Shown: positions 14,285 to 61,297 of the stretch, piece by piece
Numbering within the stretch: position 1 is the first letter of the stretch
Layout: every line of letters begins with the position of its first letter
NCBI GenBank assembly: GCA_025267735.1
Contig: CM046294.1
Location: 19,960,162 to 20,024,161 of the forward strand
From: Mactra quadrangularis
Taxonomy: Eukaryota; Mollusca; Bivalvia; Venerida; Mactridae
Reading direction: 5' to 3'
Length of the DNA: 64,000 nucleotides
Position numbers and translations under genes: made by a program
Notes under the pieces: model-generated
What the model saw: the letters and a program-made list of their open reading frames with translations, nothing else
Databases searched by the model: none
Told to the model about the DNA's origin: nothing

Positions 14285-14435
14285 TAAGGAATGAATGTAT
14301 AGAAACTGACTTTCATCGAAAAATAAACGTCACTTTTGGTGATAGCTATTTCATGAAGGCCTTTATGCAAATTAGCTATCACCAAAATGACGTTTATTTT
14401 TCGATGAAAGTCAGTTTCTATACATTCATTCCTTA
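14285..14435. repeat. Near-perfect 151-bp palindrome
   Basis: Arms 14285-14348 and 14373-14435 are reverse complements over about 63 nt with a single one-base indel. The 24-nt centre ('catgaaggcctttatg') is itself nearly palindromic. Confidence 0.9.
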
Positions 14436-16370: not shown

Positions 16371-19300
16371 TATCAACAAAAAAGAAATCCATTAAAAGGA
16401 TATTTATCAACAAAAAGGACACGCAATACAAGGTCATTTATCAACGAAAAGGCAACGCAATATAAGGTCATTTTTATCAACAAATGTTATTTAAATGTAT
16501 TTGTGAACAAAAAGAAATCTATTTTAAGGATATTTGCATACAAAAAGGAGACACATAAGGATATTTGTGTACAAATAAATATCTATTTTAAGGATATTTG
16601 TGTACAAAAAGGAGACACATTATAAGGATATCTGTGAACAAAAGAGTTCTATTTTAAGGATATTTGTGTACAAAAAGGAGACACATTATAAGGATATTTG
16701 TGAACAAAAAAAGAGATCTTTCTTAAGGATTTTTGTGAACAAAAAAAGAGATATATTTTAAGGATATTTGTGTACAAAAAGGAGACACATTATAAGGATA
16801 TTTGTGAGCAAAAAAGAGATCTATTTTAAAGATATTTGTGTACAAAATCGGAGACAACTTATCAGGATATTTGTGAACAAAAAAAGAGATCTATCTTAAG
16901 GATATTTGTGTACAAAAAGGAGATCTATTTTAAAGATATTAGTGTACAAAAAGGGGATCTATTTGATGGATATTTGTGTACAAAAAGGAGACACATTATA
17001 AGGATATTTGTGAACAAAAAAGAGATCTATTTTACAGATATTAGTGTACAAAAAGGGGATCTATTTGATGGATATTTGTGTAAAAAAAGGAGACAGATTA
17101 TAAGGATATATGTGAACAAAAAAGAGATCTATTTTAAAGATATTAGTGTACAAAAAGGGGATCTATTTGATGGATATTTGTGTACAAAAAAAATATCTAT
17201 TTTAAGGAGATTTGTGTACAAAAAGGAGACACATTATAAGGATATTTGTGAACAAAAAAGAGATCTATTTTAAAGATATTAGTGTACAAAAAGTGGATCT
17301 ATTTGAAGGATATTTGTGTACAAAAAGGAGACACAATATAAGGATATTTGTAAACAAAAAAGAGATCTATTTTAAGGAGATTTGTGTACAAAAAGGAGAC
17401 ACATTATAAAGATATTTGTGAACAAAAAAGAGATCTATTTTAAAGATATTAGTGTACAAAAAGGGGATCTATTTGAAGGATATTTGTGTACAAAAAGGAG
17501 ACACATTATAAGGATATTTGTGAACAAAAAAGAGATCTATTTTAAGGATATTTGTGTACAAAAAAAGAGATCTATTTTAAGGATTTTTGTATACAAAAAA
17601 AGAGATATATTTTAAAAAAGAGATATATTTTAAGGATATTTGTGTACAAAAAGGAGACACATTATAAGGATATTTGTGAACAAATGAGAGATCTATTTTA
17701 AGGATATTTGTGTACAAAAAGGAGACACAATATAAGGATATTTGTAAACAAAAAAGAGATCTATTTTAAGGAGATTTGTGAACAAAAAAGAGATTTATTT
17801 TAAGGATATTTGCGTACAAAAAGGAGACACATAAGGACATTTGTGTACAAAAAATATCTATTTTAAGGAGATTTGTGTACAAAAAGGAGACACATTATAA
17901 GGATATTTGTGAACAAAAAAGATCTATTTTAAGAATATTTGTGTACAAAAAAGAAGACACAATATAAGAATATTTGTGAACAAAAAAGAGATCTATTTTA
18001 AAGATATTAGTGTACAAAAAGGGGATCTATTTGAAGGATATTTGTGTACAAAAAGGAGACACATTATAAGGATATTTGTGAACAAAAAGGAGATCTATTT
18101 TAAGGATATTTGTGTACAAAAAGGAGACACATTATAAGGATATTTGTGAACAAAAAATATCTATTTTAAAGAGATTTGTGAACAAAAAAGAGATCTATTT
18201 TAAGGAGATTTGTGTACAAAAAGGAGACGCATTATAAGGATATTTGTGAACAAAAAAAGAGATCTTTCTTAAGGATATTTGTGAACAAAAAGAGATCTAT
18301 TTTAAGGATATTTGTGTACAAAAAAGAGACACATTATAAGGATATTTGTGAACAAAAAAAGAGATCTATTTTAAGGATATTTGTGTACAAAAAGGAGACA
18401 CATTATAAGGATATTTGTGAACAAAAAAAGAGATCTATTTTAAGGAAATTTGTGTACAAAAAGGAGACACATTATAAGGATATTTGTGAACAAAAAGGAT
18501 ATCTATTTTAAGGAGATTTGTGTACAAAAAAGAGACACATTATAAGGATATTTGTGAACAAAAAAGAGATCTATTTTAAGGATATTTGCGTACAAAAAGG
18601 AGACACATAAGGATATTTGTGTACAAAAAAAATATCTATTTTAAGGAGATTTGTGTACAAAAAGGAGACACATTATAAGGATATTTGTGAACAAAAGAGA
18701 TCTATTTTAAGGATATTGTAACACAATGGCACGCTGCCAGAACAATAGAGTTCTGTAGTCGTTATTTGACCAATGAGAGCGTGACTGATCACCACGTGAT
18801 CATTGATACGGTCTGGTGGCCCGCAGCGTGAGTTAGTTCGGGGAGTTGCTTTCTAGCTCCGAGAGAGAGCGGACGTAGTTTTGTAGATATGTTAAATCTC
18901 TATTAATAATAAGTTATAAACCTATGATGAGTGTTTGTCGTTATGTTCTGGTTGAGTTTAAGATACTGAGTTAGTTAAGTATGTGGACGGTGGACATGTA
19001 GTGCCACAATATTTGTTGCAAAAGGAGACACATTATAAGGATATTTGTGAAAAAAAGAGTTCTATTTTAAGGATATTTGTGTACAAAAAGGAGACACATT
19101 ATAAGGATATTTGTGAACAAAAAAGAGATCTTTCTTAAGGATATTTGTGAACAAAAAAAGAGATCTATTTTAAGGATATTTGTGTACAAAAAGGAGACAC
19201 ATTATCAGGATATTTGTGAACAAAAAGGAGATCTATTTTAAGGATATTTGTGTACAAAAATGAGACACATTATAAGGATATTTGTGAACAAAAAAGATCT

Positions 19301-21570
19301 ATTTTAAGGATATTTGTGTACAAAAAAAGAGATTTATTTTAAGGATATTTGCGTACAAAAAGGAGACACATAAGGACATTTGTGTACAAAAAATATCTAT
19401 TTTAAGGAGATTTGTGTACAAAATTGAGACACATTATAAGGATATTTGTGAACAAAAAAGAGATTTATTTTAAGGATATTTGTGAACAAAAAAGATCTTT
19501 TTTAAGGATATTTGTGTACAAAAAAGATATCTATTTTAAGAATATTTGTGTACAAAAAAGAGATCTATTTTAAGGATATTTGTGCACAAAAAGGAGACAC
19601 ATTATAAGGATATTTGTGAACAAAAAAGAGATCTATTTTAAGGAGATTTGTGTACAAAAAGGAGACCCATTATAAGGATATTTGTGAACAAAAAAGAGAT
19701 CTATTTTAAAGATATTAGTGTACAAAAAGTGGATCTATTTGAAGGATATTTGTGTACAAAAAGGAGACACATAAGGATATTTGTGAACAAAAAAGAGATC
19801 TATTTTAAGGATATTTGTGTACAAAAAGGAGACACATTATAAGGAGATTTGTGAACAAAAAAGAGATCTATTTGAAGGATATTTGCGTACAAAAAGGAGA
19901 CACATAAGGATATTTGTGTACAAAAAAAATATCTATTTTAAGGAGATTTGTGTACAAAAAGGAGACACATTATAAGGATATTTGTGAACAAAAAAGAGAT
20001 CTATTTTAAAGATATTAGTGTACAAAAAGTGGATCTATTTGAAGGATATTTGTGTACAAAAAGGAGACACAATATAAGGATATTTGTAAACAAAAAAGAG
20101 ATCTATTTTAAGGAGATTTGTGTACAAAAAGGAGACACATAAGGACATTTGTGTACAAAAAATATCTATTTTAAGGAGATTTGTGTACAAAAAGGAGACA
20201 CATTATAAGGATATTTGTGAACAAAAGAGATCTATTTTAAGGATATTTGTTGCAAAAAGGAGACACATTATAAGGATATTTGTGAAAAAAAAGAGATCTA
20301 TTATAAGGATATTTGTGTACAAAAAGGAGACACAATATAAGGATATTTGTGAAAAAAAGATATATTTTAAGGAGATTTGTGAACAAAAAGGAGACACATT
20401 ACAAGGATATTTGTGAACAAAAAAGAGATCTTTCTTAAGAAGATTTGTGAACAAAAAAGAGATCTATTTTAAAGATATTTAAGCACAAAAAGGAGACACA
20501 TTATAAGGATATTTGTGAACAAAAAAAGAGTTCTATTTTAAGGATATTTGTGTACAAAAAGGGGATCTATTTGAAGGATATTTGTGTACAAAAAGGAGAC
20601 ACATAAGGACATTTGTGTACAAAAAATATCTATTTTAAGGAGATTTGTGAACAAAAAGGAGACACATTATAAGGATATTTGTGAACAAAAGAGATCTATT
20701 TTAAGGATATTTGTTGCAAAAAGGAGACACATTATAAGGATATTTGTGAAAAAAAAGAGATCTATTATAAGGATATTTGTGTACAAAAAGGAGACACAAT
20801 ATAAGGATATTTGTGAACAAAAAAGATATATTTTAAGGAGATTTGTGAACAAAAAAGATATATTTTAAGGAGATTTGTGTACAAAAAGGAGACACATTAT
20901 AAGGATATTTGTGAACAAAAAAGAGATCTTTCTTAAGAAGATTTGTGAACAAAAAAGAGATCTATTTTAAGGATATTTAAGCACAAAAAGGAGACACATT
21001 ATAAGGATATTTGTGAACAAAAAAAGAGTTCTATTTTAAGGATATTTGTGTACAAAAAGGGGATATATTTGAAGGATATTTGTGTACAAAAAGGAGACAC
21101 ATAAGAATATTTGTGAACAAAAAAAGAGTTCTATTTTAAGGATATTTGTGTACAAAAAGGGGATCTATTTTAAGGATATTTGTGTACAAAAAAGAGATTT
21201 ATTTTAAGGATATTTGTGTACAAAAAAAGACACATTATAAGGATATTTGTGAACAAAAAAGAGATCTATTTTAAGGATATTTGTGTACAAAAAAGAGACA
21301 CATTATAAGGATATTTATGAACAAAAGAGATCTATTTTAAGGATATTTGTTGCAAAAAGGAGACACATTATAAGGATATTTGTGAACAAAAAAGAGATCT
21401 ATTTTAAGGATATTTGTGTACAAAAAGGAGACACATAATAAGGATATTTGGAACAAAAAAGAGATCTATTTTAAGGATATTTGAGAACAAAAAAGAGATA
21501 TATTTTAAGGATATTTGTGAACAAAAAATACCCATTTAGACGTTATTTATGAACATAAAAAACACATTAT
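16370..21570 (+). repeat. 34-bp tandem array, about 150 units, two alternating types
   Basis: Two 34-bp types alternate: 'aaggatatttgtgtacaaaa' + 'aggagacacattat', and 'aaggatatttgtgaacaaaa' + 'aagagatctatttt', giving a ~68-bp higher-order unit. The plus strand is purine-rich. Edges are more diverged ('ttatcaacaaaaaggac' on the left, 'cgttatttatgaacataa' on the right). 34 is not a multiple of three, so ORFs of up to 145 codons are read through all three frames of the unit; they are not evidence of a protein. Confidence 0.93.
18717..19008 (+). mobile_element. Solo LTR inserted in the 34-bp array
   Basis: 292 bp of unrelated sequence starting TGTAACACAATGG and ending GTAGTGCCACA, flanked by ATAT on both sides (18713-18716, 19009-19012). 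Termini TGT...ACA with short inverted CAC/GTG, and size, fit an LTR left by recombination between the two LTRs of a retrotransposon. Strand is by the TG...CA convention and is symmetric, so orientation is uncertain. Confidence 0.65.
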
Positions 21571-30564: not shown

Positions 30565-33020
30565 TAAAACAAGAGCTCCGCTGGGCGGGGCATTATACGC
30601 CCGTGTGCAGTCCATGCTGTGTTCTATCTCATATGAAGTCCCTGTGACCTTGACCAATGACCCCAGAATAGGTTCCATCCTTAACTGGAGGGCTATCCAA
30701 AGCAAAGATTTTGAGTACCTGGTTGAGTTATCACCAGCACAAAGTTTTCCCATACAAACTTCCAGTGACCTTGACCCTGGGGCCTCAGAACCAAAAGTTC
30801 TCACCCTTGACCCAAAGAGTATTGATACATAAAATTTGGTGATCTTAGATAAAGTCGGTTGTTGGACAAGGTTTTTCCTCATGATTTCCTTGTGACTTTG
30901 ACATTTGACCCAGGGGCCTAAAACCAAAAGGGCATATTATGCTAGACATTTAGGCTACCCCTAAATAAACTTCGGTGAACCTAGGTACAATCATTATTTA
31001 GTTATTGTCCGGTAAATGTTTCCATATGAATTAAGTCCCAGTGACTTTGACTTTTGACCCTGGGGTCTCCAAATCAAAAGGGAACATCCTCTACCAAAGA
31101 GCTATCAACACATTACTCCTTGACAAATGGGCTGATCCACATAAAATATGTTTACCTAGGTACAATCATTGCAAAGTTATTGTCTGGACAAGGTTTTCCA
31201 TATGATGCCCCGGTGACCTTGACCTTTGACCCAGGGGCCTCAAAACCAATAGGGAACAACCTTGACACATGGGCTACCCTCACATAAAATTTGGTGAACT
31301 AATTTCATGTTACTTATTAAATATACAAATGTAGCATAATTTCAATTGTTTGCCATTTTTACTTTATTAACATATTAATTGAACATTTGAAGTCACTGCT
31401 TGGTAATTTGATATCTTGGTTGAAGGTTTAAGCTTGACCCAGGGGCCCCAAAACCTATAGGGCACATCCTTGAAACAAGGGCTTCCTTCACATAAAATTT
31501 TGTGAACCTAGGTACAGTCTTTGTTGAGTTATTGTTGGGACAAGGTTTTTCAATATGATGCCCCTGTGACCTTGACCTTTGACCCAGGAGCCCCAAAACC
31601 AATAGGGCATATACTTGACACAAGGGCTACTCTCACATAAAATTTGGTGAACCTAGGTACATAGGTATTTCAGTTATTGTCCGGACAAGATTTTCATTGC
31701 TTGCCATTTTGACTTAATTAACATATTGATTGAACATTTGAAGTCACTGCTTGGTAATTTGATATCTTCTGGTTGAAGGTTTAAACTTAACCCTGTTTCC
31801 CAAAAACTTATAAGGCACATCCTTGACACATGGGCTACTCTCACATGAAATTTGGTGAACCTAGGTACAGTCATTGTTGAGTTATTACCCAAACAATGTT
31901 TTTCAATATGATGCCCCTGTGACCTTGACCTTTGACCCAGGGGCCCCAAAACCTTCAGGGCATATCCTTGACACATGGGCTACTCTCACATAAAATTTGG
32001 TGAACCTAGGTACATAAGTGGTTCAGTTATAGTCTGGACAAAATTATTCCATATGATGCCTCTGTGACATTGACCTTTGAACATGGGGCCCCAAAACCTA
32101 TAGGGCACATCCTTGAAACAAGGGCTACCTTCACATAAAATTTTGTGAACCTAGGTACAGTCGTTGTTGAGTTATTGTCGGGACAAGGTTTTTCAATATG
32201 ATGCCCCTGTGACCTTGACCTTTGACCCAGGGGCCCCAAAACCTACAGGGCATATCCTTGACACATGGGCTACTCTCACATAAAATTTGGTGAACTTGGG
32301 TACATAAGTGGTTCAGTTATTGTCCGGACAAAGTTTTTCCATATGATGCCTCTGTGACCTTGACCTTTGAACCTGGGGCCCTATAAACCTATAGGGCACA
32401 TCCTTTACACATGGGCTACCTTCACATAAAATTTTGTGAACCTAGGTACTGGCGTTGTTCGAGTTATCGTCCTGACAAGGTTTTTAAATATGATGACTTT
32501 GTGACCTTGACCTTTGACCCAGGGGCCCTAAAACCAACTGGGAACATCCTTGACACATGGGCTACTCTCACATAAAATTTAGTGAACCTAGGTAGATTGG
32601 TTGTTCAGTTATTGTCCGTAAAAGTTTTTTTCCCATATGATGCCCGTGTGACCTTGACCTTTGACCCAGGGGCCCAAAAAACCAATAGGGAACATCTTTG
32701 ACACATGGGCTACTCTTACATAAAATTTTGTGAACCTAGGTACAGTCGTTATAGAGTTATTGTCTGGACAAGTTTTACCTATTTAAAGTCCCAGTGACCT
32801 TGACCTTTGACCCTGGGGTCTCAAAATCAATAGGGAACCTCCTCCACCCAAGGGCTATCCACATATAAAATTTGAGGAAACTAGGTGCATCCTTTCTTAA
32901 GTTATCATCCGGACAAGCAATTGTCCACGGACAGACGGACAGACTGACAGACGGACGGACGAACAGACGGACAACATCATAACATAATACGACCGTTTTT
33001 TTAAAACGGGCGTATAAAAA
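30565..33020. mobile_element. Hairpin-ended element with ~145-bp tandem units
   Basis: Begins 'gggcggggcattatacgccc' and ends 'ccgtttttttaaaacgggcg' plus 'tataaa', each end able to fold; a run of 'gacggacagac' precedes the right end. Between them are about sixteen units of 'ataaaatttggtgaacctag', 'gttattgtccggacaaggtt', 'gtgaccttgacctttgaccc'. ORFs here are repeats read through. Confidence 0.8.
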
Positions 33021-38561: not shown

Positions 38562-38756
38562 TAACAGGCATTGTCTAAGTCAAAGGGGGAAAATTCAAAC
38601 AAGCATTGTCTATGTCAAAAGGGGCATAATTCAAACAGGCATTGTCTAAGTCAAAAGGGGCATAATTCAAACAGGCATTGTCTAAGTCAAAAGGGGCATA
38701 ATTCAAACAGGCATTGTCTAAGTCAAAAGGGGCATAATTCAAACAGGCATTGTTTG
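38562..38756 (+). repeat. 36-bp minisatellite, five units and a half
   Basis: 'caggcattgtctaagtcaaa' + 'aggggcataattcaaa'. The period is divisible by three, so it stays open as a 12-residue repeat (HNSNRHCLSQKG), but there is no splice or codon support for translation. Confidence 0.85.
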
Positions 38757-39144
38757 CAACCTATTATTTCTTAAATAATAACATTTGACAATATGACTTC
38801 AAATTGTGTTTTTAATGTTCAAATTAACACCCTTGTGTCCCTACTTTAATTATCAAATTAAAGACTATGACAACTAACTATCATTTTGAAATAAATAAAT
38901 GTTGATTTGAAAATCTGACTAACACAGATAAAAGCTCATTTCAGCTGCTGTTGCCAATTTTTCCAATTTCTTTTTTCAACCGCTAATGGAAAGGTTTTCC
39001 TACTTTCTAGTATGTCATTTTGCATTTGTCAAATAGGACGACATTTTATAAATAGACAATTTAAAGACGGTATAGATAGATAGCGAAAACAACTTGTTTT
39101 CACGAAAACAACTTTTTTTTACGAAAACAACCTGTTAAATTAAT

Positions 39145-41122
39145 ATTATATGTTATTTCAAACAAAACTTAATATTTTGTGAAAGTGTAAAACAAAATAC
39201 GTTAAATAAGCAAGTTTTAATTCAAAATTCCGAAAAATAATGATTTTATAGCCGAGTTTCTTTTTTTAGTGGATTACAATGGGAAGTCGATTGAAGTGCT
39301 ACCTTGAAGTTCTTTACGAAAACAACCTTAAAAATGTTTATTTATTCATGTTTAGCATGGTAAAAATCTTTTCCGTAATAAATATATTAATTGGATGCAT
39401 TTTTATAATTAACTTATTAGCAATAAATGAAAATAATGATGATATAAATGTTTTCCTTCACGAAAACAACTAGCTACATTTTGTAACTGTTTAGCATTCG
39501 TACGAAAACAACTTAACAAACTGTGAAATTAAAATCATCTGTGTTTTCAGTTATGTTCTTTTTAATCTTACAACACTTCTAAACAAATTTTATTGGAAAG
39601 TAAATAAAATGATAGGAAAATAATGATTTCATCCATCGTAACAAAACAACATTTTTTACGAAAACAACAATCAGTCAATCTCACGAAAGCAACTATTTCT
39701 ACGAAAACAACAATCAGTCAGTCTCACGAAAACAACTATTTCTACGAAAACAACTTTTCCTACTAAAACAACTATCAGTAAGCCTCACGAAAACAACTTT
39801 CCCTACGAAAACAACTTTTCCTACGAAAACAACTTTTTTACGAAAACAACAATCAGTCAGTCTCACGGAAACATCTTTTTCTACGAAAACAACTTTTCCT
39901 ACAAAAACAACTATCAGTCAATCTCACGAAATTAACTTTTTCTAAGAAAACAACTTTTATACGAAAGCATTTTTATACAAAAACAACATCAGTCAGTCTC
40001 ACGAAAACAACTTTTCCTACAAAAACAACAATCAGTAAATCTCACGAAATTAACTTTTTCTAAGAAAACAACTTTTATATGAAAGCATTTTTATACGAAA
40101 ACAACATCAGCCAGCCTCACGAAAACAACTTTTTCTACGAAAACAACAATCAGTCAATCTCACGAAAACAACATTTCCTACGAAAACAATTTTTCCTACG
40201 AAAACAACTTTTCCTACGAAAACAACTTTCATACGAAAGCAACAATCAGTCAATTTCACGAAAACAACATTTCTATGAAAACATCAATCAGTCAATCTTA
40301 CGAAAATAACTTTTCCTACGAAAACAATTTTTCCTACTAAAACAACTTTCATACGAAAGCAACAATCAGTCAATTTCACAAAAACAACTTTTTCTACGAA
40401 AACAACCATCAGTCAGTCTCACGAAAACAACTTTTTTACGATAAGATAAGCATCGTATTTTTAAACATATCTTAATTATATAATTACTTTACAGAATCAA
40501 ATCATAATGTTTATCAACAAAACAATTCATGTTTTGATTTAGCGTGAAAAATATTAATTTTCTAAGTTGTTTTCGTACTGAAAAGTTGTTTTCGTTAGTC
40601 AGACAAAATGTCGTTTTCGTGAAATTAACGTGTCGTAACATCATTATTTTTTCTATTATTTCAATTAATTACAAATCAAATGTCTAACGAGATGATGTTA
40701 ATGTAAAAAGAACTCAAATAAAAACACAGGAAATATTGATTTTACAGTTTGTTAAGTTGTTTTCGTACGAGAGCTCAACAGCTATAGGTAGAACTAGTTG
40801 TTTACGTGAGGAAAAACAGTAATATCATAATTATTTTCATTTATTGTTAATAAGGTAATCAGAAAAACGTATCCAGGATAAGTATTTATTTCATAAAATA
40901 TTTAAATAATGTTAAACATGAATGATAAACATTTTATAGGTTGTTTTCGTATGGAATTTCAATGTAGCATTTTCGATCGACTTCCCGTTGTGATCCGCTA
41001 AAACAAGAAAATCGGCTATAAAATCAATATTTTTCGGAATTTTGTACCAAATCTTGCTCATTTAATGTATCTTTTAATATGCATTCATACATTATTGAGT
41101 TTTGTTTGAAATATTAAAGCCA
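39145..41122. mobile_element. Foldback-type element with ~150-bp terminal inverted repeats
   Basis: Left 39145-39292 and right 40972-41122 are reverse complements with moderate divergence: 'atttcaaacaaaactta' / 'gagttttgtttgaaat', 'aattccgaaaaataatgatt' / 'tcaatatttttcggaatt', 'gggaagtcgat' / 'atcgacttccc'. The interior holds a dense 'acgaaaacaac' array. No transposase. Confidence 0.75.
39640..40440 (+). repeat. 'acgaaaacaac' array within the foldback element
   Basis: Short units 'acgaaaacaacttttt/cct' are mixed with 'aacaatcagtcagtctc'. The 11-mer also occurs singly at 39085-39300 (plus) and inverted ('gttgttttcgt') at 40565-40950. Confidence 0.85.
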
Positions 41123-41966
41123 ATAGATCTACTGATGGGAATATATCTTTTGGTCTCACGTTCTAATCACTTTAGCATAAAATAAAGAAATCTATTACAA
41201 ATATGTTTCCATATAATGATCTCTCCAAGGAATTATATCCAATCAACCTTTAAGACAAATTTCCAAGATAACTTGCCAGTAAATGTAGAACTGAGATTTG
41301 AACCTTCTTGAGCGGTGAGCAGACCATGTCGCCATAAAAGCTAGCTTACAATAACAATACAATACAAAACAATTTGAAACAAATACAGTTCAACAATAGC
41401 TATGAATAGCTATTCATACCCCCAGTGCTTGAAGGCAATGGAATACAAGCACAGTTTTTACCTCAGCTACAGTCGCCTCTAGAGTGCTATATATAAACAA
41501 GTTTCTTCCATATTTGGGCATAATGACCTACTTTTAGAGCTCAGATGACCAATTTTAAAATTTCATGCTAGAATTCAAATTTCAACAATATTCTGCTCGA
41601 AAAAGTAGCTAAGCTCTTAAGTGCCAAAAATATTTTTCCATATTTGGGCATTGTAAGTTAAGGTAACATGACAAAATCAAAATGGCTGCCGCCTGAAATT
41701 GAGTGCAAGTCATAAAACTGGCAGTGGAGTTTAAAGTAGCAAAAATTGGTAAATGTTTGTATTCCTACGTCATTATCTACATGCAAATCTATCACAAAAT
41801 ACAAAAAACACAATTCTAAAACATAACAAAAAAGAAAATCACTAACCTGAATATATCCAATTTTCTTGTACATTTATTCAAAAAGTATACATAAATATTC
41901 CACAAATAATACACTTTACACAATAAGCATAGTCTAATGCAGGTGCTGGAATTAAAATGAAGTCCA

Positions 41967-46238: not shown

Positions 46239-46830
46239 GTTCAACGGTCATTTCTCCACTACGCCATTTCTCCTCTGGTCATTTCGCCACTTTTTACCCT
46301 GGTCATTTCTCCGCCTTTTTACATGTGAGATTGTACGATGTATGTACATGTATTTACGTATACTTTTTTTGGGGGGGGGGAATATTAAAATTTAAAAAAA
46401 AGAAATGAAATGCAAAATATTATTATGTAAATTATATTTTTTAATCAATAACATTTGATAATCAAGTCAATAGTATATAATTGTCACTAAAATTCATGTA
46501 ATTAAAAATAAATACTGACGCTGAACAATACATCATAAAACGATAAAGAAATGATACTTGTATACTTCTACATAACATTATAAATATATAAATTATGTAC
46601 TTTTAATTGATTTAATGGCTCAATATAACAATCCAATAATATGGGTAATTATCACCTTATACAATACACATATATAGAGAGGAGGAGAAATGTCCAGGGT
46701 AGAGTGGGGAACATTCTGGTTCCCCGAGTTTATCAAGGTATTGAGAATCATACTAGACTCGGTACGAGAATGAGTGGAGAAATGACGAGGGGAGAAATGA
46801 CTTAGTGGAGAACTGACTTGTTCCCTATTG
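46239..46830. mobile_element. TIR element 'ggtcatttctcc', short copy
   Basis: Left 'ggtcatttctccactacg', right 'gtggagaaatgac...ggggagaaatgac', inverted. The interior ('gtaaattatattttttaatc', 'agtcaatagtatata') matches the larger copy at 47548-49170. Confidence 0.65.
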
Positions 46831-47547
46831 AGAGTAGTTTCCCCTTAGTATGCCAGATCGCCTCGGAACAATTTCTTTATTATTTGACAAGTTATCTCCC
46901 TTGTTATAATTAAATGTTTGGGGTTTTTTGCTAATTTTCTACATTTTTTATCATGCTGGGTTTATAATTTAGCTGAACTGCTTTATTAGTATTTTAATGT
47001 TTTACTTTGAGTTCATTTCATTTATCTATGTACATAAACCAGTGCGATGATGGTCCAGATGGGATTTTGGACAATACTGGAAGAAGAAGAAGAATATATA
47101 GTGTTGCCTTTTTCAATTTTTTTACCGTTGGGTAGAGTTAATTCGATATTCTGTACAAATATTTTATTTATAAAAAACAACATATTTTTATTTTACACTA
47201 AATTTTCAAAATGCTACAAAAAGCAATATATTTTTGTCCATAGCCTATAAACTTACAAACAAGTGAATGTTTTTTGTTAACATTTTTTCAAGGACCCTAT
47301 ACAATGTATTATATTTTCCCAAATAAATGTTTTATTGGTATTGAAAGCAAAAAAGCCCCCCCCCCCATATATTTAGTACACTATTTTTATCAGTTTATCG
47401 AATCTATCGAATGGTTATACAACTTATACTTTAGAGGAGGTGTGGCGATTTGGTAGTTTAGGGAATGATCGACAGACATCCGTCCCACTCGGCCAGCCTG
47501 TATACAAAGGGAGACAATCATTTGTTGGTTTAAATTGGCTAACGGTC

Positions 47548-49170
47548 ATTTTTTCCACTAAGTCATTTCTCCCCTAGTCATTTCTCCACTTTCTACCCTA
47601 GCACTTCTCTACCTTTTTATATGGAGGTACATGTATATAATCACGTATGTATTGTACGATTATATTGAACTGTCCGATTGCATAATTACACGGTTATCGC
47701 ACACTGTATATATTAAGTCCCGCGCCATATATACAGAAATGTGCAGTAAAACTTACTATGTGTAGGTTAATTTTATGTCAATATCTCATCTGGTTGAATG
47801 GTCGTACGGTTAAAGTGCAATGCTACTAAACATCTTTTCTTAAAGCTGTGCGAGTCTGAACCTGAATATGTTGATTTTCTTGATTTTTTGTTCTTAATTT
47901 TTGTTTTGTTTTTGATTTAGATCTATCTTATTCAGAATTTTTGGAAATAGAAATAAAACACTTCAAAACAATTAAACAATGTAAAAAGCATTCAATTTAT
48001 TGACAGTGTCGGTTGTGCTACTGCCATCATCACATAAAAGAAATGCCACCAAATTTATAACAAAGGCTTCTCTACAAGTTCATGATGCACGGGGGCAATG
48101 TGTTTTATGCAATCCGTCCATGATTTAAATGAGAGAAAAAAATAGATAAAAATGAGTTTCTATCGGGATTCGAACCCACGATAAAAAGATTTGTAGTCTG
48201 ACCGTCTCCCCACTGGGCCTCACAAACTATGATACATATTGAAAATACGATTATAATACATAAGTGTTATGGACTGACATTACACTCTACGTGAACTACC
48301 GAAATTAACCGAGTATTATATATTCCGTGTAATGTGACGTTTTAATTTATGCAATTGGACAGTTCAATATAATCGTACAATAGATGTGTTTTTTTTGTTA
48401 AGTACATAAACATTATTATAATTATGAAATGTTCAATTAGGATAATATGATGAATAAAGTTCTATAGTATTATTTTGATAAAATCAACTTATATGCAATA
48501 TTTATCCAGTGAAAAGGATAGAAAATAAATACACATGTTATTTAGTCTATATTATATAAAGATATACTTATGAACATTACCAGGGAATTAGGTATACTGT
48601 TATCTATGTCTCTGACATTACTTATTTTTGGGAAGATTTTAAATTTAAGAAAGAAATGAAATTTTATGTAAATTATATTTTCTAATAAATAACATTAGTA
48701 CTAAAACAATTGCAAATAAAGTCAATAGTATATATTGTTGCTAAAATTTATGTAATTGCACTGAATACTGGCAGACCTTTTTCCAACGGTAGCCGTTTAC
48801 AGGCGCCTTTCCCTCCTGAAATTTCTTTCAAACATGCAGTTTTCCCAAATTTAGAGTTTACCTTGGATATTTTGTTCCCCTACCGATGAAATTGCGATAA
48901 AGTTTCCCCAAATGTTCTACATAAAAAAGGCCCAGGCCCCTTCCTCAAATACTGAAAAAAACTTGAATGGCACTGAATTTGATAATAGTACATTATAAAA
49001 CAATTTATAGATAAAGAAGAAACATCGGTAACATCAGTTTGTATTCCAATTGATATATTGTCTAAATATGACAATTCAATTGTCACCTTGTACAATACAC
49101 CAATTATACTATATATAAGAGGAGAAATGACCAGGGTTGAGTGGAGAAATGAGAAGGAAAAGTAGAGAAA
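47548..49170. mobile_element. TIR element 'ggtcatttctcc', long copy with an insertion
   Basis: Left 'aagtcatttctcccctagtc', right 'gaggagaaatgaccaggg'. Same interior as 46239-46830 in its right half; the left half is occupied by the element at 47651-48385. Confidence 0.6.
47651..48385. mobile_element. Inserted inverted-repeat element carrying tRNA-like arms
   Basis: Ends TTGTACGATTATATTGAACT and inverse AGTTCAATATAATCGTACAA, each flanked by TA. Facing inward are two tRNA-like sequences: plus 47795-47872 (degraded) and minus 48163-48232 (GGTTCGAATCC box B). Confidence 0.7.
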
Positions 49171-56432: not shown

Positions 56433-56951
56433 TTACAATTGATCAAAGGCTGTTGTGTGAATTCGTTCAAAATTTTGTGGAAATGTAGACCCGGCTTGAA
56501 TGTCTTCGATACATGTCACACCGTTAGGGTTCAATTGTTCCATGGTCAAACGGGTCGTATTGTAACTGTCCATTATCATAGACGACGAAGCTGCGAAACT
56601 TATCACATCCATTGGTTTTATATCAGAAATGGAAATATATGGAATAGAGCCCAACTGATTGGATGAGTTTATATTAACTTGTGTAGGTAACCCGGTGTCC
56701 TCCCCAGGTTGGATTTTCTCATATAACTGATGATAGTCAATTTCTGGTTCACTGTCATAATCATAGCTAGTTCCCATGTTGTTCTTAACTTTCTTTTTCA
56801 ACTTGATACCGTGGCTCTCTATATGTAACTTCATTCTATCAGTCCTTGAGGTCTGATATTCACACTGCTTACATTTAAATAGTTTTTCTTTTAAGTGTAT
56901 TCTTTCATGACGTAAAAGTTTACTTCTAACGACAAATGACTTCCCACATAC
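56433..56951 (-). CDS. BTB-ZF gene, last coding exon (rest of finger 8, finger 9, C-terminus)
   Basis: Begins VCGKSF in phase 0 after the acceptor TGTTTACAG, completing the C-x2-C of finger 8. Finger 9 runs C814-H834. The remainder is a ~125-residue tail rich in Ser, Ile and acidic residues with no domain I recognise. The TAA stop is at 56433-56435. Candidate AATAAA polyadenylation signals on the minus strand lie near 56215 and 56170, about 215-265 nt downstream. Confidence 0.88.
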
Positions 56952-59900
56952 CTGTAAACAAACATACATAAAGACATAGAGGATATTTGTCAACTTCAGC
57001 GTAAGATTTCTTTTATTTCACCAAGTGAACTCATAAAACATATTTTTACTAGTGGCATAGTCACGAGTGAAACAATCTGATTAAAACCTGATCTAAAATT
57101 TTCCGCTTGCATACTTAAATTAGCATGCAAAACTTGGTCTAAAAATAGAAATTACGAAATCAAAATGTGATTAATAGTGTTTTTGTCTACATGAAAGTTA
57201 CGCATTGATTGGCCGAAACAAAGTTCATCTCTACGTGACCTTCCACGGAGAAAGTAGAGATCCTGTACGCCAACACTCTACAGGATATCTGTTAACGGAG
57301 ATTGCGAGTGAAAGTGTCATTTTTTGGGTTCACATGTTGAAATAAAAAATATTTTACACCAAAGTTGATGAATATTCTGTTTCTTTTATGAATAGATTTG
57401 TGTTTTTATATGTTTACAAATTCTAATGTGACATCATTAATTTTCTTACATGCTTAATGGTGAAACATTATTCAACAAATTCTATATTTTCTTTGAATTT
57501 AAAATATAAAGTTATATTTTAATGACGTCATCTTAGAAGATAAATGACATTATCTTGAAAATTAAATGATGTCATGTTATAATTCAGCACAGCTATCTTA
57601 GCCAACATTTGACCAATATCTTTAACCAATACAATTTGACCTAGTATACTTATTTGTCAAATGGAAATCTTTTGCTGAAGAGCGAAATGGATACAAGATA
57701 TGGTACCATTGGTTTTTTGTGATAAACAGGTGAGTAGCACCGACAGCCACAGTAGTTCTAGAATATTTTCTCTGTAATTTGAGTGACTTACTATGCCAAT
57801 TGATAAAATCTTTTAGTCATGAAAAGCACCTGGCGGTATAACTGAACAGTGAAAATGACTATTTATACGTCAAACAAAATGAACCCTGCATAGTGCCGAA
57901 TATCTGTTTAAAGGTATTTTTCATTTATGTTAAGGTTGACGAAAGCATCAAACAGATAATAACAAACTTACCTGACAGACATGATCTCTGATATTTAGAT
58001 GAGCATTCATATGTTGTGTCATATGACCAGCTTTAGGTGTAGTATAGTTACAATTAGGAAATGTACATTTCTTTACTTCTCCTGAAATAGTCAAGACAAT
58101 TTTAATAGACAATTTCATACATCTAGTTTGCTACGTACTGTATATTGTTGGATGAATATTCAATGAATATTCAGGGGCGTGGAATTCCTATGCCCTATTT
58201 GTCTGACTCATACATTTATGTCTGCGGTCAGGTAAACATTTCCAGCCTACTTGTCAATACTTTTTAGCTTTAGATACACCAACATAGTAATACTTTATAA
58301 TGTAAATGTTTCAACCATATTCAGCATTGAACTATTGCATTCAATAATTTATAACTAAGTACTTAAAATATGTAATTTGAGAAGACAAGAAAAAGGTACA
58401 GATTGACCAACAACTGACCCACCGACAAGCTGACTCGTATATACCCCTCTAATTTTCTTGGGGGTGGGGGTTAATCATTCCAAAAGAGTATTCATCCTTG
58501 GAATCAAATCCACTAACCCACTAACCCAGACTCAGTAAACTTGCATGCTACCAACTGAACTAACTAAAGTAAAGCTATAACTAACCTGTATGAACTTTTC
58601 TATGTGATATTAAATGTGATTGATGTTTCGTAGAGAATCCACATAGATCACATAGATAAGGTTTATTATCAAAATGTATGGCTCTATGTTGAGTCATTAC
58701 ACCTTTAGTTGTAAACTTCTTATAACATACATCACATTCAAACTGACGACCTGCAAATAGAACATCATACAACATGTGATAGTGTCAGGGCTTGAATTTA
58801 AGCAAAATGCGAGTAGAATTTGAAAATTGCGAGTAACTTTTATTTTAACTTGCAAATTTTCACGAGTTGAGACCACTGCAAAAATTTTACTTTCTAAACT
58901 AATGAGGCTCAAATTAGCATTTGAACGACCAGATAAATCGATGATATTCACAATAAACCATGTTTGATATCTTTGTCTATCCCACAATAACGCAATTGTA
59001 TATACGAATAGTTACTATGTATGCTATCAAAATTTGAAGAAAAAATGCCAGTCCTTTTTTTCATTTTGCGAGTAAATAAAAAAACCCAGCTAGATCCTCC
59101 TATGCAAGTATATTAAGTAACTCACTTTTGCTAGCCCAAATCAATTTTCACTTTTGACTTGCAGACTAAGATGAAGTAAAAGTAATAAATACAAAAATCT
59201 CAGTACCTTACCTAAATGTAATTTTTTATGTGTGGTCATCTGGTTGTAGGTACTATATGATTTCATACATACATCACATTGATATGGTCTCTCTTTTAAG
59301 TGTGACATGTGATGGCGTACAAATAAACTTAGTCGGAATAATTTCACTTCACAACCTTCTACGTCACATGTGTACGGCGTTTTAGGAAAGTGTTCTTTCA
59401 GATGAAAACATAGATCTCTCATTTCTGTTGCTTTGTATTCACATACCCAACAAGACAGATTAACGTTAATTAAGTGCACACGTTCTATATGCTTGTCAAG
59501 CACATGATTTAATTTCGCCGAAAAATCACAATTTTCGTAAGTACAATGCACTCTTGGGCGACTAGGTTTCTGAACATCTGCAGATGGGCGAGACTGTTTG
59601 TGAGTTACACTTACTTTGCTTTTAAGCTTAGTTTTCTTCAAACATGTTCGTTTTCCTTTTCTAAACGTCAATTTAATTTTTGACTTAGGAGCATTTTCAC
59701 TAGAATTGATATCATTTTTGTTCTCAGAAACATTGTCCTTGCTAATGTAGTTGTTTTCAGTGCCGTCAGCTTTGGTCGGTTCCATTGTTTCCTCAACATT
59801 TGTCAATAGAATAAATTCCTCACTTTCACCATTAACGTTAATGTTAGTATCTAATTTTTGATCATTATGCTTATTCTGTAGTTCACCAACATTTTCTTGG

Positions 59901-61297
59901 GTTTGAACAATGGCTGACTTCTTATCTTTAACAGCCTGTTTCCTTTGTTTCCGTGGTTTTCTTTCTTTAGGTTCTTTAGAACTTTTCCGCGGTAATTTTC
60001 GAGGCAAACTTTTCCGCCTATGTTTAGAATTCAATTGAGCAACTTCTGGGTCAGTTTCTTTACCAACACTGTCATCGTTTTTAACTTCATTTGATGGTTC
60101 TATAAAAACAGTTATTTCATCTTTGGGATTTCCATTACTTTCAAGTTCTTTGACAACATTTTCAACAGTTTCACAACCAGTTACAGTAGCTTCCGAGTTT
60201 GGAGTTGGAATGATCATGGCTTGGAATGCAGAAAGGTCATATTCAAAGTCAGTATTTACAGCAATTTCTTTAAATTCCTTCAATGGTTGAATTGCAATCT
60301 TACTATACTGCAAACTAACAGGGACTTGTTCAAGCTCTTTATGATACTGACCAGGGAGATTGAAAGCTTCTGGGTGAGAGAGATCTTCGATCATATGTGA
60401 ATATATAGCAAATAAACGTGGATATGCTGTGATAAATGGACCAAGGTGGTGACCAACGGCTGTAACAAGACTATGTAGAAGTTGAAACAAGCAGAATTCA
60501 TTTGTAGTGAAAATATTTTGAGTGCAACTAATCTTAATAAGGAGGTCATTAACAGTGTGAGTCCACTTTACTCTGTCAAATAAATACATCAAGAATTTAT
60601 CACGTTCTGATACACTGTTTCCAACCCAGCTGATAATCAGAGAAAACTTTGCCTCGTAGTTTAAATCCTCCATTTTTCCAGTAGACAAAAATGCCTTAAA
60701 ATCTGCTGGTTGTAGGTCTAGTAACACAGGTTGCTCCATTATACTGGCTATATTTGTTGCTATAAAGTCAAATATACATTGTTCAAGTTTCTTCAAGTTA
60801 AACTTTACGCTTAAAAAATACTTAGCGACAAAGTTCTGCAATGTAACATTTTTCTGAATGTAGGATTCACAAACATCCACCAATGAGTCGATCATCAAAG
60901 CTCGGCCAAGCTCGAGCAGAGATGATAAGTTTGATTGATCACAGAGGACTAGGCCGGTGTACATGTAGTCTATACAATGTTCAACAGCTTTAGTATTGTT
61001 GAATTGTAGCACAACCCCCGAGGCTTGTTCATCTCTAGTCAGTAAACTAGCTAACCGTGGACTCCAGGCAGCCACAACAGCTTTGTGAGCATGAAATTCT
61101 GCTCCATTAGCACTTATTGTAAAGTCGCAGAATTTCTCCTCATCCTTGAATTCTTTCAGCTTGTACAAAACATTGAAGATATCAAAATCTGGAGATGATT
61201 TCATGCCATGTTTTTGTCCACTAACTGCAGTGTTAGTTGAAGTACGCAAATATGTATCATCTGTCAAATTCCAAGCCATTTTTTTCTTATTATTCAT
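56433..61297 (-). CDS. BTB-BACK-C2H2 zinc finger protein, four coding exons
   Basis: A nuclear, probably DNA-binding transcription factor of the ZBTB type. My spliced model is 61297-59212, 58750-58586, 58081-57972, 56951-56433: 2880 nt, 959 residues plus TAA. The BTB domain spans about residues 40-150 (CDF...[14 protein letters not shown]), BACK-like helices follow to about 250, then an acidic and polar linker, a Lys/Arg-rich stretch at about 424-458 (possible nuclear signal, AT-hook-like RKPRK), and nine C2H2 fingers at about 585-834. BTB domains in this family mediate dimerisation and co-repressor binding. Each intron has GT-AG ends and matching phase. The start is either the first AUG after the acceptor at 61304 or Met7, whose context (AAAATGG) is better. 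I cannot name the ortholog. The gene sits among introns filled with repeats; the C-terminal ~120 residues after the last finger have no recognised domain. Confidence 0.92.
57082..57300. mobile_element. Deletion derivative of the 51355-51740 element
   Basis: Lies in the third intron of the BTB-ZF gene. Same ends, but the ~160 bp present at about 51397-51555 are missing; the junction is 'gcatactt|aaattagcatg'. Confidence 0.55.
57972..58081 (-). CDS. BTB-ZF gene, exon with finger 7 and the first Cys of finger 8
   Basis: 110 nt, too short for a simple ORF scan. The acceptor is CTATTTCAG|GAGAAG and the donor CTGTCAG|GTAAGT. It starts by completing the Gly of the HTG-E linker, encodes a C-x4-C finger (C756, C761, H774, H778), and ends after ...DHVCQ, one residue before the second Cys of finger 8. 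Confidence 0.9.
58586..58750 (-). CDS. BTB-ZF gene, exon with fingers 5 and 6
   Basis: 165 nt in phase 1-1. The acceptor is TTTGCAG|GTCGTC and the donor CATACAG|GTTAGT. It encodes two complete C2H2 fingers (C701/C704...H717/H721 and C729/C732...H745/H749) followed by an HTG linker start. An ATG-initiated reading of this segment would add intron-derived residues; the acceptor argues against that. Confidence 0.9.
59212..61297 (-). CDS. BTB-ZF gene, first coding exon (BTB, BACK, linker, fingers 1-4)
   Basis: Residues 1-695 and the first base of the Gly696 codon. Fingers 1-4 begin at about C585, C616, C644 and C674; fingers 1 and 3 have a C-x4-C spacing, 2 and 4 the usual C-x2-C. The open frame continues 24 codons past the donor, but those residues are hydrophobic and unlike the rest. 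The donor reads TTTAG|GTAAGG, and the next exon restores the finger pattern exactly. An acceptor (TTGTTGTTGCAG|GTATGAATG) lies just upstream of the first ATG, so at least one upstream non-coding exon exists. Confidence 0.92.

Follow-up and report, generated by a model that had tools for sequence, protein, structure and literature searches.

Within the 64-kb window (the whole stretch of bivalve DNA that we analyzed), the region at 39060-41125 combines many copies of one 11-mer with inverted repeats, which raises the question of whether it is a mobile element built around this motif or a local repeat that never moved. Allowing up to one mismatch, we found 46 matches to the 11-mer, ACGAAAACAAC, in the window, 45 of which lie within 39083-40950; 28 of these 45 are exact. 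Whole-window shuffles gave an expected number of 2.21 ± 1.41 matches, and none of 100 shuffles reached 46. There is also a difference between the strands, with 39 of the 45 matches on the plus strand and the 6 minus-strand copies being the last six of the locus (40566-40950). The original prediction had described one 11-mer present dozens of times, clustered centrally on the plus strand and inverted toward the right end, and both the count and the strand map agree with this description. We also found that another 11-mer, AAGGATATTTG, is denser, with up to 40 exact copies per 2 kb compared to 24 for ACGAAAACAAC; it sits in a 5-kb satellite-like array at 16498-21527, which has a 34-bp unit and a 102-bp higher-order period. 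Thus, a high 11-mer count by itself is ordinary in this window, and what is unusual is such a count combined with long inverted arms.

These arms, each about 550 bp long, are the top-scoring minus-strand pair in a BLAST comparison of the window with itself, aligning over 564 columns, gaps included, with an E value of about 1e-109 (Table 1). The outer part, an ungapped block of 142 nt (39154-39295 and 40972-41113), is better kept, with 83% identity. It is this block alone that corresponds to the predicted inverted ends of about 150 bp; the ends are present, but the full arms are nearly four times longer, and the DNA between them amounts to about 0.85 kb (39712-40565) rather than the predicted 1.7 kb, with further motif copies lying inside the arms. 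Similarity between the arms ends sharply at 39154 and 41113, and from this stop we take the arms to be putatively terminal. To our knowledge, the arm ends fit no known transposon terminus. A reading of the arms as tandem 190-bp units, taken from motif spacings of 195 and 186 and a repeated 17-mer, was mostly lost when the motifs were cut out: for two of eight pairs of ~190-bp units, no more than 20 of 500 shuffles then did as well, and for each of the other six at least 38 did.

The six left-arm motif copies with at most one mismatch face the six of the right arm in register, all of them reading inward. With the caveat that picking columns with a surviving motif biases the comparison toward a positive result, motif columns agree between the arms in 63 of 66 cases and the remaining ungapped columns in 375 of 471 (Fisher P = 5e-4). 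Under a simple neutral model with equal change in both arms, which carries the same bias, the probability of three or fewer changes across the twelve arm motifs is about 3e-4 and that of no more than one change in each arm motif copy is 0.009, while the outer three motif pairs alone give a P value of 0.005. The left-arm copy at 39640, which has two mismatches and lacks a right-arm counterpart, was left out of these tests.

Most of the plus-strand motif array lies between the arms, its first four positions falling inside the left arm. At most one mismatch is seen in 33 of its 40 positions, two in five positions, three in one, and four in one. The 39 steps between positions are mainly of 18 bp (18 steps) and 25 bp (11 steps), the others being of 17 bp (six), 16 bp (two), and 24 bp (two); the main spacers are TTTTYCT for the 18-bp steps and AATCAGTCAATCTC for the 25-bp steps. 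No minus-strand motif was found at up to two mismatches in 39640-40440. The larger units listed by the tandem-repeat search, among them ones of 43, 61, 118, and 120 bp, argue for amplification on a range of scales. Within the array, conservation of the motif barely exceeds that of the spacers (0.93 versus 0.89 and 0.94 versus 0.92); the array thus shows no trace of selection on the motif, which is what neutral amplification would produce. The array is a continuation of the left arm at its inner end, and the inner arm ends pair motif for motif (39658, 39683, and 39701 with 40620, 40595, and 40576). In the right arm, just the start of the array is present, with 25- and 19-bp steps, and the long array is confined to the left side; thus, expansion was one-sided. 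The best match elsewhere in the window to the segment separating the array from the right arm is 27 nt at 81% (E = 0.07).

As had been predicted, the 11-mer also occurs outside the left arm, in an outer trio of copies found on the left side only. When we looked for a partner of the trio beyond 41113, the local score was 35 compared to a shuffled mean of 33.1, and 108 of 300 shuffles did as well. Together with the bases that follow it, the trio is similar to the right arm's inner end, at 85% over 46 nt, most of them motif. It may be the true left end of the element, its right counterpart having been lost; it may represent asymmetric ends, such as are outlined on a smaller scale for Tm1 (PMC3169594); or it may be the mark of a rearrangement. 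The proposal that the element grew by expanding its own terminal motif therefore stands in part: growth from its own motif agrees with an array that continues the left arm inward and is long on that side only, but an origin in the terminal motif had been argued from the trio, which may instead mark a true left end or a rearrangement.

Comparison of the flanks (38991-39170 and 41100-41320) revealed no identical word of 8 bp or longer. A weak candidate target-site duplication is the pair TTAAAGAC and TTAAAGCC, with the consensus TTAAAG(A/C)C, the latter adjoining the right arm end exactly; five other 8-mer pairs in the flank comparison also match at up to one mismatch, and a match as good within 95 bp arose in 7.3% of 5,000 random placements, which is not significant. 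A second, AT-rich pair, AATATTATA and AATATTAAA at 39142 and 41110, matches at eight of nine bases. Both candidate duplications are leads, not evidence, and no clean target duplication was found at the locus. We gave little weight to the TA-flanked ends TATTTCAAAC and GTTTGAAATA, since TA is its own reverse complement. The element would run from somewhere in 39069-39154 to about 41113.

Table 1. Coordinates of features at the probable foldback locus and of the neighboring GTCATTTCTCCACT runs
Feature	Coordinates	Strand	Description
Weak candidate target-site duplicate, left	39061-39068		TTAAAGAC; right TTAAAGCC at 41114-41121, 7/8 bases match
Outer 11-mer trio	39083-39131	+	Copies at 39083, 39102, and 39121, 19 bp apart, outside left arm
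Left inverted arm	39154-39711	+	Six motif copies (≤1 mismatch) reading inward; 76% identity to reverse complement of 40566-41113
Motif array	39640-40431	+	40 positions set by hand from motif matches
Segment between array and right arm	40436-40565		130 bp, no motif at ≤2 mismatches
Right inverted arm	40566-41113	-	Six motif copies on - strand, reading inward
GTCATTTCTCCACT run 1	46247-46315	+	4 copies
GTCATTTCTCCACT run 2	46773-46817	-	3 copies
GTCATTTCTCCACT run 3	47562-47590	+	2 copies
GTCATTTCTCCACT run 4	49118-49153	-	2 copies

The locus is AT-rich, with a GC content of 0.25 to 0.32 across it, and we found no long ORF in 39060-41125. The longest stop-free frame, of 109 codons, is a low-complexity repeat translation, and a reading of the array as coding sequence was rejected on this ground and because the 25- and 43-bp steps break the frame. 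Neither Rfam at gathering thresholds nor ARAGORN gave a match in the window. The nearest recognized exon is about 15 kb from the locus; a BTB/BACK zinc-finger gene lies on the minus strand at 56436-61279, with at least four aligned blocks that are 81 to 97% identical to a Mactra antiquata protein, the closest among 18 proteins found, which points to a bivalve host related closely to Mactra. We found no second copy of the element in the 64-kb window, where the best arm matches outside the locus are 25 nt at 88% (E = 0.007).

Outside the window, phage records gave no match to the locus, and two words from the arms had no hits (0 and 0) in viral contigs. Two exact 11-mers 5 to 15 bp apart were found in 5 viral and 65 prokaryote stretches, most of which, judged by eye, are AAC/GAA-rich simple repeats with other spacers; we regard these pattern matches as coincidence. 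The best BLAST match, 57 nt at 82% to the end of a Francisellaceae contig (L006), was likewise set aside as a short motif run with a different spacer at a contig edge.

Tandem arrays are common in the window, with 49 rows in the tandem-repeat search, 14 of them on the foldback locus. They include a 36-bp array at 38563-38753, which has 5.3 copies with 95% matches and lies some 330 bp to the left of the outer trio, and overlapping arrays with periods of 353, 290, and 145 bp at 31138-32916. A palindrome of about 150 bp at 14285-14435, 93.5% identical to its own reverse complement, is possibly a MITE-like element.

Structures with short-motif inverted repeats are also present 5 to 10 kb from the foldback locus. 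A 14-mer, GTCATTTCTCCACT, has 11 matches at up to two mismatches compared to 0.57 expected in the window, and these lie in 46247-49153 in runs with 15- to 24-bp steps (Table 1). Runs 1 and 2 form an inverted pair of 45 nt at 87%, runs 2 and 3 a better one of 40 nt at 95%, runs 1 and 4 one of 34 columns at 85%, and runs 3 and 4 a weak one of 20 nt at 90% (E = 0.008); an inverted pair without the motif lies inside the same interval (47647-47685 and 48347-48385, 39 nt, 95%). No target duplication was found for the pairings of the first run with the second and the third with the fourth. The interval has the appearance of at least one additional element bearing inverted repeats of a short motif, and the foldback locus is therefore not the only place with inverted runs of this sort. 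A literature word search with the first 11 bases of GTCATTTCTCCACT gave no relevant paper by title among the matches listed.

We conclude that the locus is probably a TIR DNA transposon of the foldback type, old and non-autonomous, in the genome of a bivalve, with the motif as a candidate transposase-binding site and an array that expanded on one side. The anatomy fits the predicted foldback element in its long arms with repeated motifs, its array, its AT-richness, and its lack of a long ORF. We count in favor of this reading the motifs that are in register and better kept across the arms, the one-strand array with its quantized spacing, and the inverted runs of GTCATTTCTCCACT nearby and, against it, the single copy in the window, the lack of an identical flank word of 8 bp or longer, arm ends that match no terminus known to us, the asymmetric trio, and array motifs barely better kept than their spacers. 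The assignment is drawn wholly from anatomy, and a sizeable minority of the probability goes to other readings. By analogy, ACGAAAACAAC would be the site recognized by a transposase supplied from elsewhere, and several inward-reading sites per arm would let transposase multimers pair the ends. Starting at the left arm's inner end, the array may have lengthened through replication slippage or unequal exchange, adding units of, for example, 18, 25, 43, and 118 to 120 bp; the copy, whose arms are now only 76% alike, appears decayed and is probably immobile.

The strongest alternative, which we consider unlikely, is that non-coding DNA already holding a minisatellite of the motif underwent a local inverted duplication and later one-sided expansion and was never mobile. 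The single copy within the window, the want of a clean target duplication, the abrupt break in similarity at 39154 and 41113, and the wealth of tandem arrays in the window all agree with such a history, but it does not account well for in-register motifs that are better kept than the rest of both arms or for inverted runs of a different short motif nearby. We regard as very improbable a non-autonomous element of the Helentron type (HINE), in which two modules flank a tandem array, even though the host is a bivalve and the array is central between flanks. Helentrons need no target duplication, which we also counted for this alternative. However, a HINE should have no long TIRs, and, judged on the arms alone, the locus has them; the oyster HINEs, as far as the account in PMC7492417 describes them, carry 11- to 12-bp subterminal repeats, a microsatellite, and a short palindrome at the 3' end rather than 550-bp inverted arms. 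Least probable of all is an element put to use by the host, as a regulatory array, an array bound by chromatin proteins, or a locus producing hairpin RNA from its inverted arms, since the dense one-strand motif array and arms able to pair are outweighed by 18- and 25-bp spacing out of helical phase, by a fold of the first 471 nt of the array that does not surpass shuffled sequence, 74 of 100 shuffles doing as well (z = 0.61), and by the distance to the nearest recognized exon.

A more far-reaching version of the transposon reading, which we regard as quite improbable, would have mactrid-like bivalves carry a foldback family not yet described, whose transposase-binding sites follow a spacer code of two lengths (18 and 25 bp). 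One end would be expanded about sixfold over the other (40 array positions compared to six right-arm motifs), and the array would serve as a sink for binding, biasing or silencing transposition and giving rise to new satellite DNA. A literature word search with ACGAAAACAAC in either orientation gave no paper on a transposon or mollusc repeat by title, such short words being seldom printed, and one combining Mactra with terms for repeats and transposons found no paper. These results hint that the sequence family may be undescribed. The main features of the locus are already published for the foldback elements Tetris, Tm1, and Galileo.

Foldback elements are described as a structural class with different transposases (PMC3169594, PMC4079207). 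In the accounts of Galileo, a P-superfamily element, the TIRs are about 0.3 to 1.2 kb long and carry several transposase-binding sites (PMC3688188, PMC3573991), and the two TIRs of F copies differ in tandem-repeat number (PMC3573991), a likeness to the locus by description; unlike the locus, Galileo has a known THAP-domain transposase. Tm1, a Mutator/Foldback element of root-knot nematodes, is outlined as having TIRs that, like those here, consist of a short tandem motif (13 to 15 bp) unequal in number between the two ends, with asymmetric end motifs outside the inverted repeat (PMC3169594). Its motif differs in sequence from that of the locus, and its 8- to 10-bp duplications and known Phantom-type transposase have no counterpart seen here. 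The oyster Cg_HINE Helentrons share with the locus a bivalve host and a central tandem array in a mobile element, but the description in PMC7492417, so far as it goes, includes no long inverted arms. Tetris, a foldback element of Drosophila virilis, is, like the locus, non-autonomous, with long TIRs containing AT-rich internal repeats that grow into satellite arrays, and the account of it likewise reports no transposase found (PMC4079207). In contrast, its repeats are about 220 bp long rather than an 11-mer in 18- and 25-bp steps, and it has 8- to 10-bp target duplications and dispersed copies, neither of which we saw at the locus or within the window. Should further copies of the element exist, the family would extend foldback-type elements with arms of short motifs to a bivalve, and the array on one side would show a satellite in the course of forming within a transposon, the process proposed for Tetris.
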